From contig JAUIMF010000002.1 in assembly GCA_030433415.1 (NCBI GenBank), forward strand, positions 62,001 to 126,000: a stretch of 64,000 bases of DNA, read 5' to 3'. Origin of the DNA: Gammaproteobacteria bacterium. Lineage in GTDB: Bacteria; Pseudomonadota; Gammaproteobacteria; Pseudomonadales; Halieaceae. The notes under the pieces were generated by a model. That model searched no databases. It was not told where the DNA came from and saw only the letters and a program-made list of their open reading frames with translations. Position numbers and translations under genes: made by a program. This document shows positions 18,261 to 60,588 of the stretch, one piece after another. Positions within the stretch are counted from its first letter, which is position 1. Each line of letters starts with the position of its first letter.

Positions 18261-19496
18261 TTAATTGGCGGCAGCAATGCGGGTTTCTTCAGCGTCGACG
18301 TAGTTCAGCCATTGCTTCGCATACTTGCGCGTATCGTCGAAGTCCGCTGCTTTTCTGAAGCGTTTGCGCGCGCCGCCAAACTGCTTGAGGCGGACTTCGG
18401 CCATACCCTGTAGCAGCCAGGCTTGCCCTTCCTGGCGCAGACCGCCTTTCTCGAGCGCCGAGCGCGATGTGTCCCGGGCCTCTTCCCAGCGATAGGCGTC
18501 CATATGCAGGCGGGCCAGGCGCAGGTAGAGCTCTCCACTCTCAGATAGTTCGGCGGCTCGGGCGAGGGGCGCGATCGCCTTTTCGGTTTCGGCGCTCATG
18601 TACCAGGCCTGGCTGAGCAGTTCGAGATTGCGGACCGTGCTCTCAATCCGCCCGGCGGCCATCTCGCGCTCCAGTAGCGTTGCGGCCTTGTAGGGCATGG
18701 CTTCACCCAGAAACAGATTGGCAATCATCTGCAGATGCGTCGGCTGGCGCAGGAGTTCCTTGTCCAACAGGGATTCGATCAGCGCCAACTGGCGTTGGGT
18801 GTCGCCGAGCTGGCCATGGAGCGCCGCGAGGTTCATCAGGTACTGCTCGCGGGTGTAGTGCACGGCCAGTTGTTCCACGACGGCCAGCATCTTGGGGTAG
18901 TCATCGAGTTCGTAGTAAATCGATGAGAGCATCGACAGCCAGTTTTCCCGCGGCACTTCGCCTTCGGTTTCTTTTTCTTTTATCGCGCTGAGCAGGGGCT
19001 CCAGCGCATCCGCATAGCGCTCCTGGCCCACGAGCGCGGCGGCGAGCAGGACCTGATTGCTGGAGGTATTCTGGTCCGGGAGCAGTAGCAGAGCCCGCAG
19101 GTGTTTCTCGGCTTCGACGTAGTCTTCCTTGATCAGGTTGAGTTGGCCCAGCGATAGCCGCAGAGTCACGATCATGGAGTCCGGTAGCTCCTCAAGGGCC
19201 AGCGCGTCGCGGTAGGTGGCCAGGGCCCGCTCCAGGTCATTCTGCTCGTACCAGGTGTAGCCCGTGACATTGAGCATGTGGGCCCGTTCGTAGGACGAGA
19301 GTTTGCGCGTCATCGCCTCGGCCATCACCGCGCGGGCACTGTCGTAGTCTTCGGCATCGATGAATAACTGCGCCTCTTCGAGCACCTTGAATGCCCGCTC
19401 ACTCATGCCCAGCACCTGCTCCTTGGCGGCGCTGGTGTGGAATGCAGCGATGGTGAGCAGCAAGGCGGCGAGCAGGACTTTCAGTGCGCGTTCCAT
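18261..19496 (-). CDS. TPR-repeat periplasmic protein of the TonB2 cluster
   Basis: A 411-residue protein with signal peptide (MERALKVLLAALLLTIAAFHTSAA) and an array of tetratricopeptide-like helix pairs, for example MLNVTGYTWYEQNDLERALATYRDALAL near residue 65. It is the last gene of a six-gene minus-strand operon, and its start overlaps the tonB stop by one base. In Vibrio and related bacteria a TPR protein closes the TtpC-TonB2 locus. It may scaffold the energising complex in the periplasm; direct function is not shown. Confidence 0.8.
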   Translation of the reverse strand: MERALKVLLAALLLTIAAFHTSAAKEQVLGMSERAFKVLEEAQLFIDAEDYDSARAVMAEAMTRKLSSYERAHMLNVTGYTWYEQNDLERALATYRDALALEELPDSMIVTLRLSLGQLNLIKEDYVEAEKHLRALLLLPDQNTSSNQVLLAAALVGQERYADALEPLLSAIKEKETEGEVPRENWLSMLSSIYYELDDYPKMLAVVEQLAVHYTREQYLMNLAALHGQLGDTQRQLALIESLLDKELLRQPTHLQMIANLFLGEAMPYKAATLLEREMAAGRIESTVRNLELLSQAWYMSAETEKAIAPLARAAELSESGELYLRLARLHMDAYRWEEARDTSRSALEKGGLRQEGQAWLLQGMAEVRLKQFGGARKRFRKAADFDDTRKYAKQWLNYVDAEETRIAAAN

Positions 19497-20107
19497 CAGT
19501 TGTCCTGCTCGTAATAGAAGCGGTTGTAGATACCGGTCACCTCAACAGCCTGGCCGTCGATCACCCGCGGCTTGTACTTGAAGCGGTAGGCCGCATCGAT
19601 GGAGGGACGGGCAAACAGGTAGTTCTCACACTGGCCCTCGACCACGGATACATCCTTGACCGTACCGGCAGTGGTAACCGTGTAAGTCACCATGCAGGTG
19701 CCGGTAATACCGCGCTCGGCGGCGCGCCGTGGATAAATGGGCGCTACTTTCACGATGGGCAGATATTCGCCATCGCCCGAGCCCAGGCCTATGCCGCGGC
19801 CAATGCTCAGGTTGGCATCGACGGTCATGGGTGCGCTGACGGCAAGGGTGTTGGCCGAGCTATTGCTCTGGTCGGCGTTAGGCGGTGCGTCGGGTACTTC
19901 GTTGATCTCGGGGCGTTCAGGCTTGCGGTCCTTGCGCTCGGCAACTTCATTGCGCTTGAGGCGCACAAAATCCAGCATCTGCACGCGATCCGTCGCCGAC
20001 AGGCGCATCTCTGAGGAATGGGTCAGAAAATACATGAACCAGGCCAGGGCCAGGGCCATGATGCTGGCCGTGGCAAAGCCCAGTAGCGGTCGAAGCCAGG
20101 TGGTCAC
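19496..20107 (-). CDS. tonB: TonB2-type energy transducer
   Basis: A 203-residue TonB. A single membrane anchor (LLGFATASIMALALAWFMYFLT) is followed by a short charged linker with KRNEVAERKDRKPERPEINEVPDAPP. The C-terminal TonB domain reads VAPIYPRRAAERGITGTCMVTYTVTTAGTVKDV to RFKYKPRVIDGQ. The linker lacks the long Pro-Lys/Pro-Glu rod of E. coli TonB, matching the shorter TonB2 type. It should pass proton-motive energy from ExbB/ExbD to outer-membrane receptors. It is cotranscribed with exbD five bases upstream. Confidence 0.9.
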   Translation of the reverse strand: MTTWLRPLLGFATASIMALALAWFMYFLTHSSEMRLSATDRVQMLDFVRLKRNEVAERKDRKPERPEINEVPDAPPNADQSNSSANTLAVSAPMTVDANLSIGRGIGLGSGDGEYLPIVKVAPIYPRRAAERGITGTCMVTYTVTTAGTVKDVSVVEGQCENYLFARPSIDAAYRFKYKPRVIDGQAVEVTGIYNRFYYEQDN

Positions 20108-20112
20108 GGCGA

Positions 20113-20517
20113 TCAGTTCGCCGCCAGGGCGATGTCGTAGACGCCGGCGCGCCGGGAGGCGTCCATCACCCGCACCAGCGTGTCATTGCGCGACTCCCGA
20201 TCCGCCTGGATCACCACGGTGCCTTTGGGGTTCTCGGCGTGCAGACGCTCGATGATGGAGCGCACGGACCGCACATCCACCTGGCGCCGATTGATCCAGA
20301 CCGCATCGTTCGCGTCTATGGCGATCAGAATGCTGGCTTTTTCCTGTACCACCGCGGTTGCCGCTTCGGGTTTGTCCACGTCGATACCGGCTTCCTTGAT
20401 GAAGGTCGCGGTAACAATGAAGAAGATAAGCATGATGAACACCACGTCGAGCATCGGCGTGATATCCACGCTGCTCTCTTCGTTGTCGGTGTTCAGGTCC
20501 GTCAGAAAATTACGCAC
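20113..20517 (-). CDS. exbD: ExbD/TolR family proton-channel subunit
   Basis: A 134-residue protein with one N-terminal membrane helix, VDITPMLDVVFIMLIFFIVTATF. It contains the family's essential aspartate at about residue 24, in a T-P-M-L-D context. The periplasmic domain includes IDANDAVWINRRQVDV and VVIQADRESRNDTLVRVMDASRRAGV. It forms the proton pathway with ExbB to energise TonB. Its start overlaps the stop of the upstream exbB by 8 bp, indicating translational coupling. Confidence 0.92.
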   Translation of the reverse strand: MRNFLTDLNTDNEESSVDITPMLDVVFIMLIFFIVTATFIKEAGIDVDKPEAATAVVQEKASILIAIDANDAVWINRRQVDVRSVRSIIERLHAENPKGTVVIQADRESRNDTLVRVMDASRRAGVYDIALAAN

Positions 20518-21055
20518 GGCGCGGTCCCTCCGTCTGGGGGAAGTGGGCGGGCAGGCTTTCGCGGATTGCCATGGCGCGGCGCTCGCTCAGCGTGGCTGCC
20601 AGAAGGCCGACGATGGCCACAACCATGCCGGCCAGGGTGGATACGGTGGCCTTGGATACGCCAGCAGCCATGGAGCGGGGGTTGTTGGACCCCGTGGCGG
20701 CGAGGGCGTCAAACACTTCGAGCATGCCCACGACGGTCCCGAGCAGACCCAACAGGGGACAGATCTTGATCAACGTGCCGATCAGCGAAAAGTGTTTGGT
20801 CAGATGGCTCGCGAGACGTCCCGCCAGTTCTGTACGGAACTGCTCGGCATACCAGGACCGATGATCCCCACGAGCCTCCCAGCTTGCCTTGGCCTCTGTG
20901 AGTTCCCGGGGATACTCCCGCAGCAGGTAATTCAGGCGTTCGAACAACAGCCACCACATGATGAAGGCGATGATCAGGATCAGGCCGAGGATGGGGCCAC
21001 CCAGTTCCAACAGGTCCCCCAGCCACGGAAACAGCCTGTCGATGAGCGCACTCAT
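20510..21055 (-). CDS. exbB: ExbB2-like MotA/TolQ/ExbB proton channel protein
   Basis: A 181-residue membrane protein with three hydrophobic helices. The conserved MotA/TolQ/ExbB core is LIGTLIKICPLLGLLGTVVGMLEVFDALAATGSNNPRSMAAGVSKATVSTLAGMVVAI, with the usual G-L-L-G-T-V-x-G-M signature. It is shorter than TolQ/ExbB of E. coli, as expected for ExbB2. It forms a complex with ExbD (20113-20517) and the larger TtpC-like protein upstream, which starts only two bases away. Confidence 0.92.
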   Translation of the reverse strand: MSALIDRLFPWLGDLLELGGPILGLILIIAFIMWWLLFERLNYLLREYPRELTEAKASWEARGDHRSWYAEQFRTELAGRLASHLTKHFSLIGTLIKICPLLGLLGTVVGMLEVFDALAATGSNNPRSMAAGVSKATVSTLAGMVVAIVGLLAATLSERRAMAIRESLPAHFPQTEGPRRA

Positions 21056-21057
21056 AA

Positions 21058-22506
21058 TCAGCTGCTGGCCTGCGCCGCGTCACGTTCACGCTGCAATTCG
21101 GCGCGCTCGGCAACCAGGGCCACGGCGCGTTGCTGCAGAATCTCGGTAATGCCCCGGGCGCGGCCCTGTACAAGGTTGTGCAGCAGCAGCATGGGGATGG
21201 CGACGCACAGGCCCAGCACCGTGGTGATCAGGGCCTGGGAAATACCGCCGGCCATCAGGCGTGGGTCACCGGCACCGAATAACGTGATGGCCTGGAACGT
21301 GACGATCATGCCCGTCACCGTCCCCAGCAGCCCCATCAACGGGGCTACCGCGGCAATGATTTTCAGCAGCGGCAGGTGTTTGTTGATGCGCGGTACTTCC
21401 GCCAGCACCGCTTCGCCCAGGCGCAGCTCCAGGGTTTCTACATCGAGCTTCTCGTCTTCGCGGGCTGCCCAGACGATGCGTCCGACCGCGTTGTCATCGC
21501 GGATGTTGCCCAGATTCTTGAGCTGCCGGCGGATCACATGATCCTCACGGCCAAGAACGAACAGCCGCCACAGTGCCAGCAGCACGCCGGCCACGCCAAG
21601 GGCGATGATCGTGTAGCCGATGGCACCACCCTGGGCGACGCGCTCGCGCAGGTTCGGCGCCTGGGTCAGGATTTCGAGCAGCTGGCCCCGCACGGGGTCG
21701 ATGGCGAAGGGCACCGTGCCCGATCCACCATCGGCCACAGCGGCGGGGCCGGCCATGTAGCGACCCGCCGGTTGGCGTGAGAACTCCACCAGCCGCTGCG
21801 TTTCGGGAATGAACTGCAGGTATTTGCCATCGGCGACGGCATTGAACAGTCCCACACGGGTAACGGGGCGTTGTTCTTCTACACCAGCGCGGCTCACGAC
21901 GGTGTGGTTTGCGCGCACCACGCGCCCGGACTCGGTCATCTCGCGCTGCAGTTCAAACCACAGGCGTTCGATTTCGTTGATGGCGGGAAGGCGGTTGGCC
22001 TGGCCCATGCGTCCGGCAAAGTCGATGAGAAAATCGCTGCGCCCGGGATGTTCCAGCTCTGTAAGGGATACGTGGAACTGGGCCTGGGCATCGCTCGCGA
22101 CCTGCTGCAGTACGCCAAACAGCTCTTTCAGCGAGCCCATGCGTTCCTGCAGGCGCTCTTCGAGTTCACCGATCATCTGATCGTTTTCTTCGTAGGTGGT
22201 CTCGCGGCGGGCGCTGGTGGCCTCAAGCTCCGCGCGGCGGTTGCGGATTTCTGCCAGCAGCTCGTCCTGGCGCTCCCGCTCCTGTTCGAAGCGGCGAATG
22301 CGCTGGGCGTCATCGCGCTGGTCCAGGCTTCGACCCTCGCGTACGGCGTCGAGCAGGGATTGCAGGGTCAGGCCGGGGTCAGTCTCTGAAGCCGTGTCTG
22401 CCGCTTCGTCCTGCGCGAAGGTGGTGGGTGCCAGCGCCAGTAATCCAATGGCGGCCAGGGCGGTAGCGCGGCGGCGAAGTCCGTTCAGGAGTATCACAGC
22501 GTTCAT
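21058..22506 (-). CDS. TtpC-like MotA/TolQ/ExbB protein with periplasmic coiled coil
   Basis: A 482-residue protein. A signal peptide (RATALAAIGLLALAPTTFAQ) is followed by a charged coiled coil (about 45-160, RIRRFEQERERQDELLAEIRNRRAELEATSARR) and a periplasmic domain. Membrane helices near 300-320 and 385-460 carry the MotA/TolQ/ExbB signature PLLKIIAAVAPLMGLLGTVTGMIVTFQAITLFGAGDPRLMAGGISQALITTVLGL. This layout and length match TtpC, the extra component required by Vibrio TonB2 systems. Its start overlaps the DUF3450 stop by 4 bp. Confidence 0.88.
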   Translation of the reverse strand: MNAVILLNGLRRRATALAAIGLLALAPTTFAQDEAADTASETDPGLTLQSLLDAVREGRSLDQRDDAQRIRRFEQERERQDELLAEIRNRRAELEATSARRETTYEENDQMIGELEERLQERMGSLKELFGVLQQVASDAQAQFHVSLTELEHPGRSDFLIDFAGRMGQANRLPAINEIERLWFELQREMTESGRVVRANHTVVSRAGVEEQRPVTRVGLFNAVADGKYLQFIPETQRLVEFSRQPAGRYMAGPAAVADGGSGTVPFAIDPVRGQLLEILTQAPNLRERVAQGGAIGYTIIALGVAGVLLALWRLFVLGREDHVIRRQLKNLGNIRDDNAVGRIVWAAREDEKLDVETLELRLGEAVLAEVPRINKHLPLLKIIAAVAPLMGLLGTVTGMIVTFQAITLFGAGDPRLMAGGISQALITTVLGLCVAIPMLLLHNLVQGRARGITEILQQRAVALVAERAELQRERDAAQASS

Positions 22507-23294
22507 TGTGCGGCCTCCACGTTCGACAGATTGAGCGGGATCGTCAGCAGCTCCGGTGCAATCTCCTGTCGCGCCACCTTGAGACCCTGGTCCATCAGGC
22601 GCCGGTAGGGCGAATTGGGCAGCGACTCCCAGCGCCCCGCTGCCACATCCCAGTAGCCCAGGCGTTCATCACCAACTGTTCGGTACATCAGCGCAACGCG
22701 ACCGATACGGAGAAAATCCGCATCGAAACTGGCGGCGTCGACGTCGAGCTTGGCGCGGTAGGCCTCGATCGTACGACCGTAATCGCTTTCAATCTGGTAG
22801 GCCTCGAATACGCGGCGGGATTTTTCTGCCACCGTGACGTCCGATCGGGACAGCAGTTCGCGCAGGTCATCGATGCGTTTGCCGCGCTCATCGGGAAGGA
22901 AGGGCACGTCCAGGGCAACGAATTTTTCAAGGCCGTCGATCATGCGCGACATCAGCGGCAGAATCTGTCGCTCGATGACCGCGACATCGGTGATGGAGGT
23001 TTGCAGTGTAGCGATCTCGCTCTTCTGGGAGCTGATCTGCTGGTCCAGCATGCGAATGTAGGTTTCCAGGCCCTCCACGATTTTCAGCTCCGCGCGGTAG
23101 TCATCCACCAGGCGTCGCGTTGCTTCGTGCACATCGTCCACCGTGACCTGATTCTCTCGGCGCTCGGCGCTGCGTTCCTGGCCTTCGGTCTCGATGGCGC
23201 GCAGGGTGCTGGTGTCCTGGGCGATGGCCGCAGAGGGCAGGGATATCAGTCCGGCGACGAGCAGGGCGCCCCCGATCCAGGGATGGATGGACAT
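22503..23294 (-). CDS. DUF3450 family exported coiled-coil protein
   Basis: A 263-residue protein with signal peptide (WIGGALLVAGLISLPSAAIAQ). The mature N-terminal half is a long charged coiled coil (about 25-110). The family segments LPLMSRMIDGLEKFVALDVPFLPDERGKRIDDLRELL and RIGRVALMYRTVGDERLGYWD follow. DUF3450 proteins open TtpC-TonB2 operons, and their role is undefined. It is the first gene of the operon. The start at 23294 follows CGGGAGAA; an upstream in-frame ATG lacks a ribosome site. A well-formed FNR/Anr-type promoter lies upstream at 23356-23397. Confidence 0.88.
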   Translation of the reverse strand: MSIHPWIGGALLVAGLISLPSAAIAQDTSTLRAIETEGQERSAERRENQVTVDDVHEATRRLVDDYRAELKIVEGLETYIRMLDQQISSQKSEIATLQTSITDVAVIERQILPLMSRMIDGLEKFVALDVPFLPDERGKRIDDLRELLSRSDVTVAEKSRRVFEAYQIESDYGRTIEAYRAKLDVDAASFDADFLRIGRVALMYRTVGDERLGYWDVAAGRWESLPNSPYRRLMDQGLKVARQEIAPELLTIPLNLSNVEAAQ

Positions 23295-23355
23295 GCGTTT
23301 TCTCCCGTGTGTGGCGAGGTGTCCGGATCGTGCGGGCACTCTTCGGTCACTGTTG

Positions 23356-23397
23356 ATTATTGATCGTCGGCGCGGGAGTCCTGTTGATTTGAATCAA
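23356..23397 (-). promoter_or_regulatory. FNR/Anr-type class II promoter of the TonB2 operon
   Basis: TTGAT-TTGA-ATCAA at 23384-23397 is a perfect match to the FNR/Anr consensus TTGAT-N4-ATCAA. On the minus strand it is followed after exactly 22 nt by AATAAT (23361 to 23356), a five-of-six match to the -10 consensus. That puts the site centre at -41.5 for a start at about 23349, the class II activator position, with a leader of about 55 nt before the DUF3450 gene. No such element lies at the right distance on the plus strand. Confidence 0.7.
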
Positions 23398-23419
23398 GGC
23401 GCGACAGATCGTCGTAATG

Positions 23420-23463
23420 GCGTCATCTCTCTGTCATGTCTTCGCAACGGAACTGTCATCTGG
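23420..23463 (+). promoter_or_regulatory. Tandem PHO-box repeats upstream of the Na/Pi symporter
   Basis: Four consecutive 11-bp units read GCGTCATCTCT, CTGTCATGTCT, TCGCAACGGAA and CTGTCATCTGG. The second and fourth start with the exact PhoB half-site CTGTCAT (23431-23437 and 23453-23459), 22 bp apart; the first is a 5/7 match and the third is weak. This 11-bp phasing is that of PhoB direct repeats. The array ends 43 bp before the symporter ATG. Confidence 0.65.
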
Positions 23464-23505
23464 TGTCAGCAAACTCACGGCTCTAACAGGTCGGGAGCTC
23501 CAGCC

Positions 23506-24759
23506 ATGATCGACAGTCCCAGATCGCCCGTGGATAGCGTAGCCCCGACTTCCTCTCTGGCGTGGCTACAGGTGCTGGCCTTTGTTTACCTGCTTCTTGT
23601 GGGCGTCGCCACGATTGGTGCCGGCTTCAAGTGGATATCCGGTGGTGCCGAGGGAGCGGCGGCGATCTTTGCCTTCGCCAGTAACCCCATAGTGGGCGTG
23701 GTGCTGGGCACGCTTGCGACCGCACTTGTGCAGTCTTCGAGCACTGTCACATCGGTGATCGTTGGCCTCGTCGCGGGCGGTGTACCGGTCAGTATTGCCG
23801 TGCCCATGATCATGGGTGCGAACATGGGCACCACCATCACCAACACCATCGTCAGTCTCGGTAACCTGCGTGAGCGCGGCGCTTTCAGAAAATCCTTCGA
23901 AGCGGCGACGGTGCACGATTTTTTCAATCTCTACAGCATCGTGCTTTTTCTGCCGCTGGAGATCGTCTTTCATCCGCTGGAGAAAAGTGGCGCCTATCTG
24001 GCGGGATTCATGAGCGGCGGGGCCGAGGCATCCATGGGCGGATTCAACGTCGTCTCGGCGCTGACCAAACCCGTCAGCACCACGCTGGTGAGCTTGTTCA
24101 AAGCAATGCCCGATACGCTTGGCGCACTGCTCACCATCGCCGCAGGCATCGCCATGATCATTGTGTCGGTGCTGTCGCTGGGCAAACTACTGCGGGCCGT
24201 AATGACCGGTCGCGCCAAAGGGCTTGTTGATGCCGCGATTGGCCGAGGCCCCTTGGCTGGCATTGCATCAGGCACCGCGGTGACGGTACTGGTGCAGTCC
24301 TCGTCGACCACCACGAGCCTCGTGGTGCCGCTGGCGGGCGCCGGCGTACTTGCCACCCGGCAGATTTATCCCTTTACCCTTGGCGCTAACATTGGTACTT
24401 GCGTGACCGCGCTTCTGGCGGCCACGTCGATCTCGGGGGGCAGTGAGTACGTAGCGTTGCAGATCGCCCTCGTTCACCTGCTGTACAACGTGTTCGGCGT
24501 CGTCCTGTTTATGGCGATTCCGTTCCTTCGGGAGCTGCCGGTGCGTTCAAGCGAATGGCTGGGGGCTCTGGTTGACGTCCATCGCGGGTGGGCTTTCGGT
24601 TATATCGGCGCCGTGTTCTTCGTGCTGCCCGGTGTAGTATTCGGGGGCGAGGCCCTGTTTTCGTCCAGAGACAAGGCTGATCTACTGCAGGCCTGTGAAG
24701 AGGATTCCATGAACTGCGCTATGGATGAAGCCCGGCGCGTGGACCTGCGCCTCGAATAG
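23506..24759 (+). CDS. Na+/phosphate symporter (NptA/PF02690 family)
   Basis: A 417-residue inner-membrane transporter. Two inverted-repeat halves each carry the substrate-site signature QSSS: TLATALVQSSSTVTSVIVG near residue 75 and GTAVTVLVQSSSTTTSLVVPLAGAG near residue 265. About eight to ten membrane segments are visible. The family imports inorganic phosphate with Na+. The ATG at 23506 follows CGGGAG. No C-terminal PhoU-like domain is present. The PHO-box array upstream suggests induction by phosphate starvation. It is divergent from the TonB2 operon across 211 bp. Confidence 0.9.
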   Translation: MIDSPRSPVDSVAPTSSLAWLQVLAFVYLLLVGVATIGAGFKWISGGAEGAAAIFAFASNPIVGVVLGTLATALVQSSSTVTSVIVGLVAGGVPVSIAVPMIMGANMGTTITNTIVSLGNLRERGAFRKSFEAATVHDFFNLYSIVLFLPLEIVFHPLEKSGAYLAGFMSGGAEASMGGFNVVSALTKPVSTTLVSLFKAMPDTLGALLTIAAGIAMIIVSVLSLGKLLRAVMTGRAKGLVDAAIGRGPLAGIASGTAVTVLVQSSSTTTSLVVPLAGAGVLATRQIYPFTLGANIGTCVTALLAATSISGGSEYVALQIALVHLLYNVFGVVLFMAIPFLRELPVRSSEWLGALVDVHRGWAFGYIGAVFFVLPGVVFGGEALFSSRDKADLLQACEEDSMNCAMDEARRVDLRLE

Positions 24760-60574: not shown

Positions 60575-60588
60575 TTGACCATCGTCAA
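60575..60588 (+). promoter_or_regulatory. FNR/FixK-family-like site at the sdh promoter
   Basis: TTGAC-CATC-GTCAA is a perfect inverted repeat of the CRP/FNR-superfamily type (TTGAY-N4-RTCAA). It directly abuts the -35 of the sdh promoter, and its centre is at about -42.5 from the inferred start, near the class II position. It is at about -92.5 from the gltA start. Confidence 0.5.

Follow-up and report, generated by a model that had tools for sequence, protein, structure and literature searches.

In the 64,000-nt stretch of Halieaceae DNA analysed here (the window), a six-gene TonB2 operon is preceded by a perfect FNR-family site placed 22 nt from a -10-like hexamer, and both the site and this spacing are conserved at the orthologous promoters. 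Judged from sequence, the arrangement is likely to be a class II promoter that depends on an FNR-family regulator and drives an accessory TonB2 operon, and probably a genuine, lineage-specific promoter activated by Anr.

Site, promoter geometry and operon in the window

The features of the locus, given in window coordinates from the divergent gene to the end of the operon, are:

23506..24759, plus strand: divergent Na/Pi cotransporter gene, outside the operon, same intergenic region (PF02690, E 3e-32)
23420..23459, plus strand: Pho-box-like CTGTCAT repeats (23420-23437 and 23453-23459) facing the Na/Pi gene (12/14 positions, P 0.005)
23384..23397, minus strand: FNR-family site TTGATTCAAATCAA, palindromic consensus (10/10 positions; kept in orthologs)
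23356..23361, minus strand: -10-like hexamer AATAAT (5/6), 22 nt from the FNR-type site
23349, minus strand: predicted transcription start (+1), from geometry only
23301..23305, minus strand: GGGAG, likely ribosome-binding site for the gene starting at 23294 (from sequence)
22503..23294, minus strand: ttpB-like gene, DUF3450, type B (Pfam PF11932, E 8e-72; alignment)
21058..22506, minus strand: ttpC-like gene, MotA/TolQ/ExbB domain, 482 aa (domain match, gene order)
20510..21055, minus strand: exbB (domain match, gene order)
20113..20517, minus strand: exbD (domain match, gene order)
19496..20107, minus strand: tonB, GTG start (TonB_C, E 5.5e-15)
18261..19496, minus strand: TPR protein in the ttpD position (TPR by Pfam; match to TtpD2 by gene order only)

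The preliminary description had claimed a perfect TTGAT-N4-ATCAA site, and the sequence at 23384-23397, TTGATTTGAATCAA (TTGATTCAAATCAA on the minus strand), indeed agrees with the consensus at 10/10 positions. The claimed AATAAT was found on the minus strand at 23361-23356, exactly 22 nt downstream, which places the site at -41.5. With the centre of the site at 23390.5, this value holds if 23356 is -7 and 23349 is +1, and the predicted +1 leaves a leader of approximately 55 nt before the ATG of the first gene (23294-23292). The locus therefore combines the palindrome of the TTGATN4ATCAA type and the distance of about 22 nt to the -10 that characterize class II FNR/Anr promoters, the start being a predicted one. 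A generic sigma-70 scan of positions 23200-23600 revealed no promoter, and was uninformative since only 0.2 were expected in shuffled sequences. A CRP site is unlikely here because CRP half-sites follow the consensus TGTGA and the half-site found reads TTGAT.

The gene order, DUF3450, MotA/ExbB-type TtpC, ExbB, ExbD, TonB_C and TPR, matches the DUF3450-ttpC-exbB-exbD-tonB-TPR order proposed earlier, and the genes overlap or lie no more than 5 nt apart.

The frequency of the site was determined in the window and in the whole assembly. The site is the only perfect match inside the window. When up to one mismatch was allowed, 2 matches were found against 0.76 expected, a number reached by 19 of 100 shuffles, indicating that the site is unremarkable within the window alone. 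Assembly-wide (3,794,944 bases in 167 contigs), there were 6 perfect sites and none for the reversed control pattern.

Conservation at orthologous promoters and contrast with other DUF3450 loci

Searches of 58 relatives and 140 family genomes yielded a group of DUF3450 loci with an identity of 56% or higher, designated type B. Thirteen such loci, the window included, were found in 10 genomes of six genera, the named relatives being Halieaceae. A site agreeing with the consensus at 8-10 of the 10 positions was present upstream of ttpB in all 13 promoters. Both the TTGA and TCAA halves were intact in nine, and one half was imperfect in L027, L028, L029 and L054. At 21-23 nt from the site a -10 matching at least 4/6 positions was present in 9/13 promoters and at least 3/6 in 12/13; the B1 copy of G011 showed 2/6.

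Eight type-B representatives were aligned on the site. Pairwise identity was 37% at the four central bases and 83% at the ten core positions, the latter value being inflated because sites were picked as the best consensus match, so that shuffling is the fairer test. Left flank, spacer and right flank showed only 26-29% identity in the same representatives. Shuffling of single promoters gave P values from 0.0005 to 0.096, the sites of G022 (P 0.096) and of the B1 copies (P 0.068 for their representative in G034) being individually non-significant. The combined P of 8e-11 rose to 8e-9 when the window was left out and to 2e-7 when its whole genus was, all of them values that kinship makes too small. 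A spacing of 22 nt (+/-1) ranked first among 42 spacings for the -10 match in these representatives. Conservation of the site upstream of the same operon, which the preliminary description had proposed as a check, was thus observed throughout the type-B promoters despite their diverged flanks, but did not extend to three loci discussed below, L122, L125 and L126, which have no site.

The gene upstream of the operon differs between loci. It encodes a Na/Pi cotransporter in the window, whereas G009 has PPK2 at this place, G012 has glutamine synthetase III and the B1 copy of G011 has an M48 peptidase; the upstream gene of G022 is unassigned. Since the upstream gene varies while the site stays, the site goes with the operon rather than with the adjacent gene. 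This bears on the proposal that a working site has another role, either in the control of the divergent Na/Pi gene or as a site of repression rather than activation. The site does lie 109 nt from the Na/Pi start in the window, inside a shared region of 211 nt, but towards that gene no -10 is present at the class II distance (AATGGCGTCATCTC), and site and spacing towards ttpB persist with PPK2 (G009) or glutamine synthetase III (G012) upstream, and also in G022. We consider such a role quite improbable, and activation of the TonB2 operon the better reading of the site.

G003 carries the same Pho-box-like element before the Na/Pi gene, in that orientation. In the B1 copies of one genus (L102, L103 and L107) a Pho-box-like sequence, CTGTCATATTTCTCTGTT (P 0.015-0.025), lies downstream of a weak FNR-like site, and no Pho box was found outside the window genus (on the Na/Pi side) and these near-identical B1 copies. 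In that genus a 9/10 site with TATGCT is kept at the B2 copies, and the weakest type-B sites are those of B1 copies. Control is perhaps split between the B1 and B2 copies. By eye, an extra ExbD-like reading frame is present just upstream of ttpB in B1 copies (L102:10247-10771 and L107:5804-6328). In G011, a PhoD gene and the B2 copy are approximately 1.1 kb apart, and the interval may contain another gene. Phosphate genes occur near the type-B operon in 3/6 genera, which is only suggestive.

The specificity of the site for type-B promoters was analyzed in a contrast set of 80 loci, in which the 12 Halieaceae type-B loci were grouped after the data had been seen. With that grouping, a site of at least 8/10 was present in 12/12 type-B loci versus 16/68 others, one of at least 9/10 in 7/12 versus 5/68, and one of at least 8/10 accompanied by a -10 of at least 4/6 in 8/12 versus 2/68. 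When L122, L125 and L126 were counted as type B, the site was found in 12/15 versus 16/65 loci (P 1e-4) and the site with its -10 in 8/15 versus 2/65 (P 8e-6), P values made too favourable by relatedness among the loci. The 29 type-A paralog promoters, from which the type-A loci L057, L062 and L066 were left out, included none at 9/10 and eight at 8/10; in L057, L062 and L066 a looser pattern gave no match. L154, a type-A-like Halieaceae locus of a separate set, showed a 9/10 match without the spacing.

The window protein grouped with UBA6060 and Mangrovimicrobium in a tree built from 81 DUF3450 proteins. The 16-row clade (support 97/91) also contained L122, L125 and L126, all without the site. 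The L122 genome has one Fnr above the cut-off yet no site at its type-B-clade locus, and no Fnr above the cut-off was found in the L125 and L126 genomes. The bins of L125 and L126 are labelled Pseudomonadales and Myxococcota and carry near-identical type-B genes, suggesting that one of them is probably contaminated. L128 (Cellvibrionaceae), just outside the clade, has a 9/10 site, a -10 of 3/6 at 21 nt and an Fnr above the cut-off. A label given to loci whose site reaches at least 8/10 and whose -10 reaches at least 3/6 required 9 changes over the 81 rows, and was also carried by 10 of the 68 non-type-B loci. Four of these are type-A promoters that are nearly identical and contain TTAATTTTTCTCAA or TTAATTTTCTTCAA.

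The three clade members without the site, together with the one-mismatch count in the window, are what a chance or relic match without function would lead one to expect. Such a match is very hard to reconcile with the conservation of site and spacing across diverged promoters, and we give this explanation hardly any weight against that of a functional FNR-type promoter.

Candidate regulators and other putative Anr-type targets

Fnr/Anr proteins above the NCBIfam cut-off were detected in 39 of the 58 genomes, including the three other genomes of the window genus. In the window assembly, which is 89.5% complete, no match to canonical anr exceeded this cut-off. The anr gene lies between the hemN and ccoN genes in 5/6 regions examined, the exception being G022. 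In the window assembly the first base of contig C36 already lies within ccoN, and the best hemN match is a 33% partial one. Since ccoN is cut at the contig start and hemN is missing, anr likely falls in an assembly gap. The Anr of G003 aligned with solved FNR (5cvr) over 226 residues and keeps its Cys positions and recognition helix.

The window assembly also encodes several other Crp/Fnr proteins and, on contig C16, a second FNR-like gene (L099:3738-4188) that is truncated at the contig end and encodes CxxC-x5-C plus a fourth Cys. By eye, this gene adjoins a LytTR-like reading frame.

These proteins raise the alternative that the site is functional but bound by another CRP/FNR-family member recognizing the same half-sites, such as an NO-sensing Dnr-type regulator or the FNR-like protein of C16, the signal then not being oxygen via Anr. 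In the available part of a study of the Pseudomonas regulon, Anr and Dnr have their consensus in common (PMC6588701), and canonical anr was not seen in the window assembly itself. On the other hand, canonical Anr exceeded the cut-off in 7/7 other type-B genomes, although it did so in 19/29 Halieaceae without type B as well, a non-significant co-occurrence (P 0.15) among the 58 genomes searched. Moreover, the four complete non-Crp proteins recovered did not show the FNR recognition helix when inspected by eye under the rule for recognizing it. We therefore regard another regulator as unlikely, and an Anr-type protein as the probable activator.

According to the mechanism proposed, when oxygen falls an Anr-type [4Fe-4S] regulator would bind TTGATTCAAATCAA centred at -41.5 and would recruit sigma-70 RNA polymerase to AATAAT, with transcription starting near 23349. 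The predicted transcript, ttpB-ttpC-exbB-exbD-tonB-TPR, would, at low oxygen, let the cell make additional inner-membrane energisers for the TonB-dependent receptors of the outer membrane.

The same layout was found at other genes, named by Pfam and chosen since a site had been seen there, so that they indicate that the layout occurs and not how frequently: hemN in G001, G003 and G010 (9/10 site, 22 nt, -10 of 3-4/6), the region before the Yip1-ccoN genes in G001, G010 and G012 (9-10/10 site, 21 nt, -10 of 5/6) and ompW of the window genome (8/10 site, 22 nt, -10 of 4/6). We take oprG, referred to below, to belong to the OmpW family. The hemN gene of G009 does not fit, its -10 towards hemN being 2/6, and the rsxA-side and globin-side perfect sites of the window genome misfit in spacing. 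The relaxed pattern TTGAYN4RTCAA occurred at 13 places in the window genome versus none for the control, but some of these lie inside predicted genes (L204 and L206) and hence do not define a clean regulon. In G009 there were 30 occurrences versus 17 for the reversed control, indicating that the relaxed pattern by itself has little specificity there.

Within the window, TTGACCATCGTCAA is present at 60575-60588, in the interval that separates the citrate synthase gene from sdhC. On the sdhC side it is followed 23 nt downstream by TATACT, and this may be a second FNR-type promoter.

Comparison with known systems

Class II FNR promoters such as that of Ideonella cld, as described in the available sections of the report (PMC7349173), have a TTGATN4ATCAA site centred near -41.5 and a -10 without a strong -35, as does the promoter analysed here. 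The hemN and oprG genes, given as core Anr targets in the available part of the Pseudomonas study (PMC6588701), have such sites in Halieaceae too; the main text of that paper makes no mention of TonB.

The TonB2 system of Vibrio vulnificus (ttpB2-ttpC2-exbB2-exbD2-tonB2-ttpD2) has the same six-gene order with the DUF3450 protein first, but in the available part of its description it is iron-regulated with a proposed Fur box (PMC6957404), whereas at the window operon no Fur box exceeds the shuffled level and an FNR-type site lies at -41.5. The best Fur-box match in the window promoter had P 0.87, and in the 16 promoters of the type-B list and 29 type-A promoters the lowest P was 0.18, none rising above shuffles. 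Fur control as in Vibrio was consequently rejected for the 45 promoters scanned.

The tonB and exbB genes of E. coli are of the TonB1 type. FNR ChIP peaks were reported at both, with no FNR-dependent change, and activation was proposed to be masked by Fur (PMC3688515, available sections). FNR occupancy at TonB energiser genes with proposed activation agrees with what is predicted here. The gene set is nevertheless different, since tonB and exbB are in separate operons in E. coli, whereas the window genes form one TonB2 operon with a predicted, conserved class II site. Oxygen-linked control of TonB genes, of which the preliminary description knew no earlier account, is thus an idea already published for E. 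coli. No FNR- or Anr-activated TonB2 operon was found in searches of the available parts of the open-access literature. Neither TonB nor exbB occurs in the main texts of three Fnr-regulon papers (PMC5934665, PMC4263372 and PMC5398030), and in the available parts of two others (PMC2231364 and PMC5387054) no FNR box is assigned to TonB genes.

The reported responses to oxygen, taken from the accessible parts of the respective papers, run in one direction. At low oxygen, exbB is expressed less in Dickeya, Pectobacterium and E. coli (PMC3349551), as are exbB/exbD in gonococcus (PMC3032703) and exbBD/tonB in E. coli (PMC8910356), and Rhodobacter capsulatus has higher exbB-exbD-tonB levels when aerobic (PMC5643017). 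A class II activator site would be expected to act in the other direction.

A doubtful but possible extension is that this Halieaceae group has two TonB2 systems, type A being general and type B an accessory, Anr-wired system turned on when oxygen falls. Since phosphate genes are found beside type B in 3/6 genera (the Na/Pi gene and its Pho box, PPK2, and PhoD at about 1.1 kb), type B may supply the energy for taking up phosphorus compounds where water or sediment is poor in oxygen. If true, the whole TonB energiser, and not only a receptor, would be under oxygen control in a widespread coastal marine family. It would become testable whether bacteria devote one set of outer-membrane energisers to oxic conditions and another to oxygen-poor ones, and the promoter would hint at TonB-dependent substrates needed at low oxygen. 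The new element suggested by these sequences is a class II FNR-type promoter heading a TonB2 operon, with a predicted sign the reverse of that reported for E. coli, Dickeya and gonococcus.
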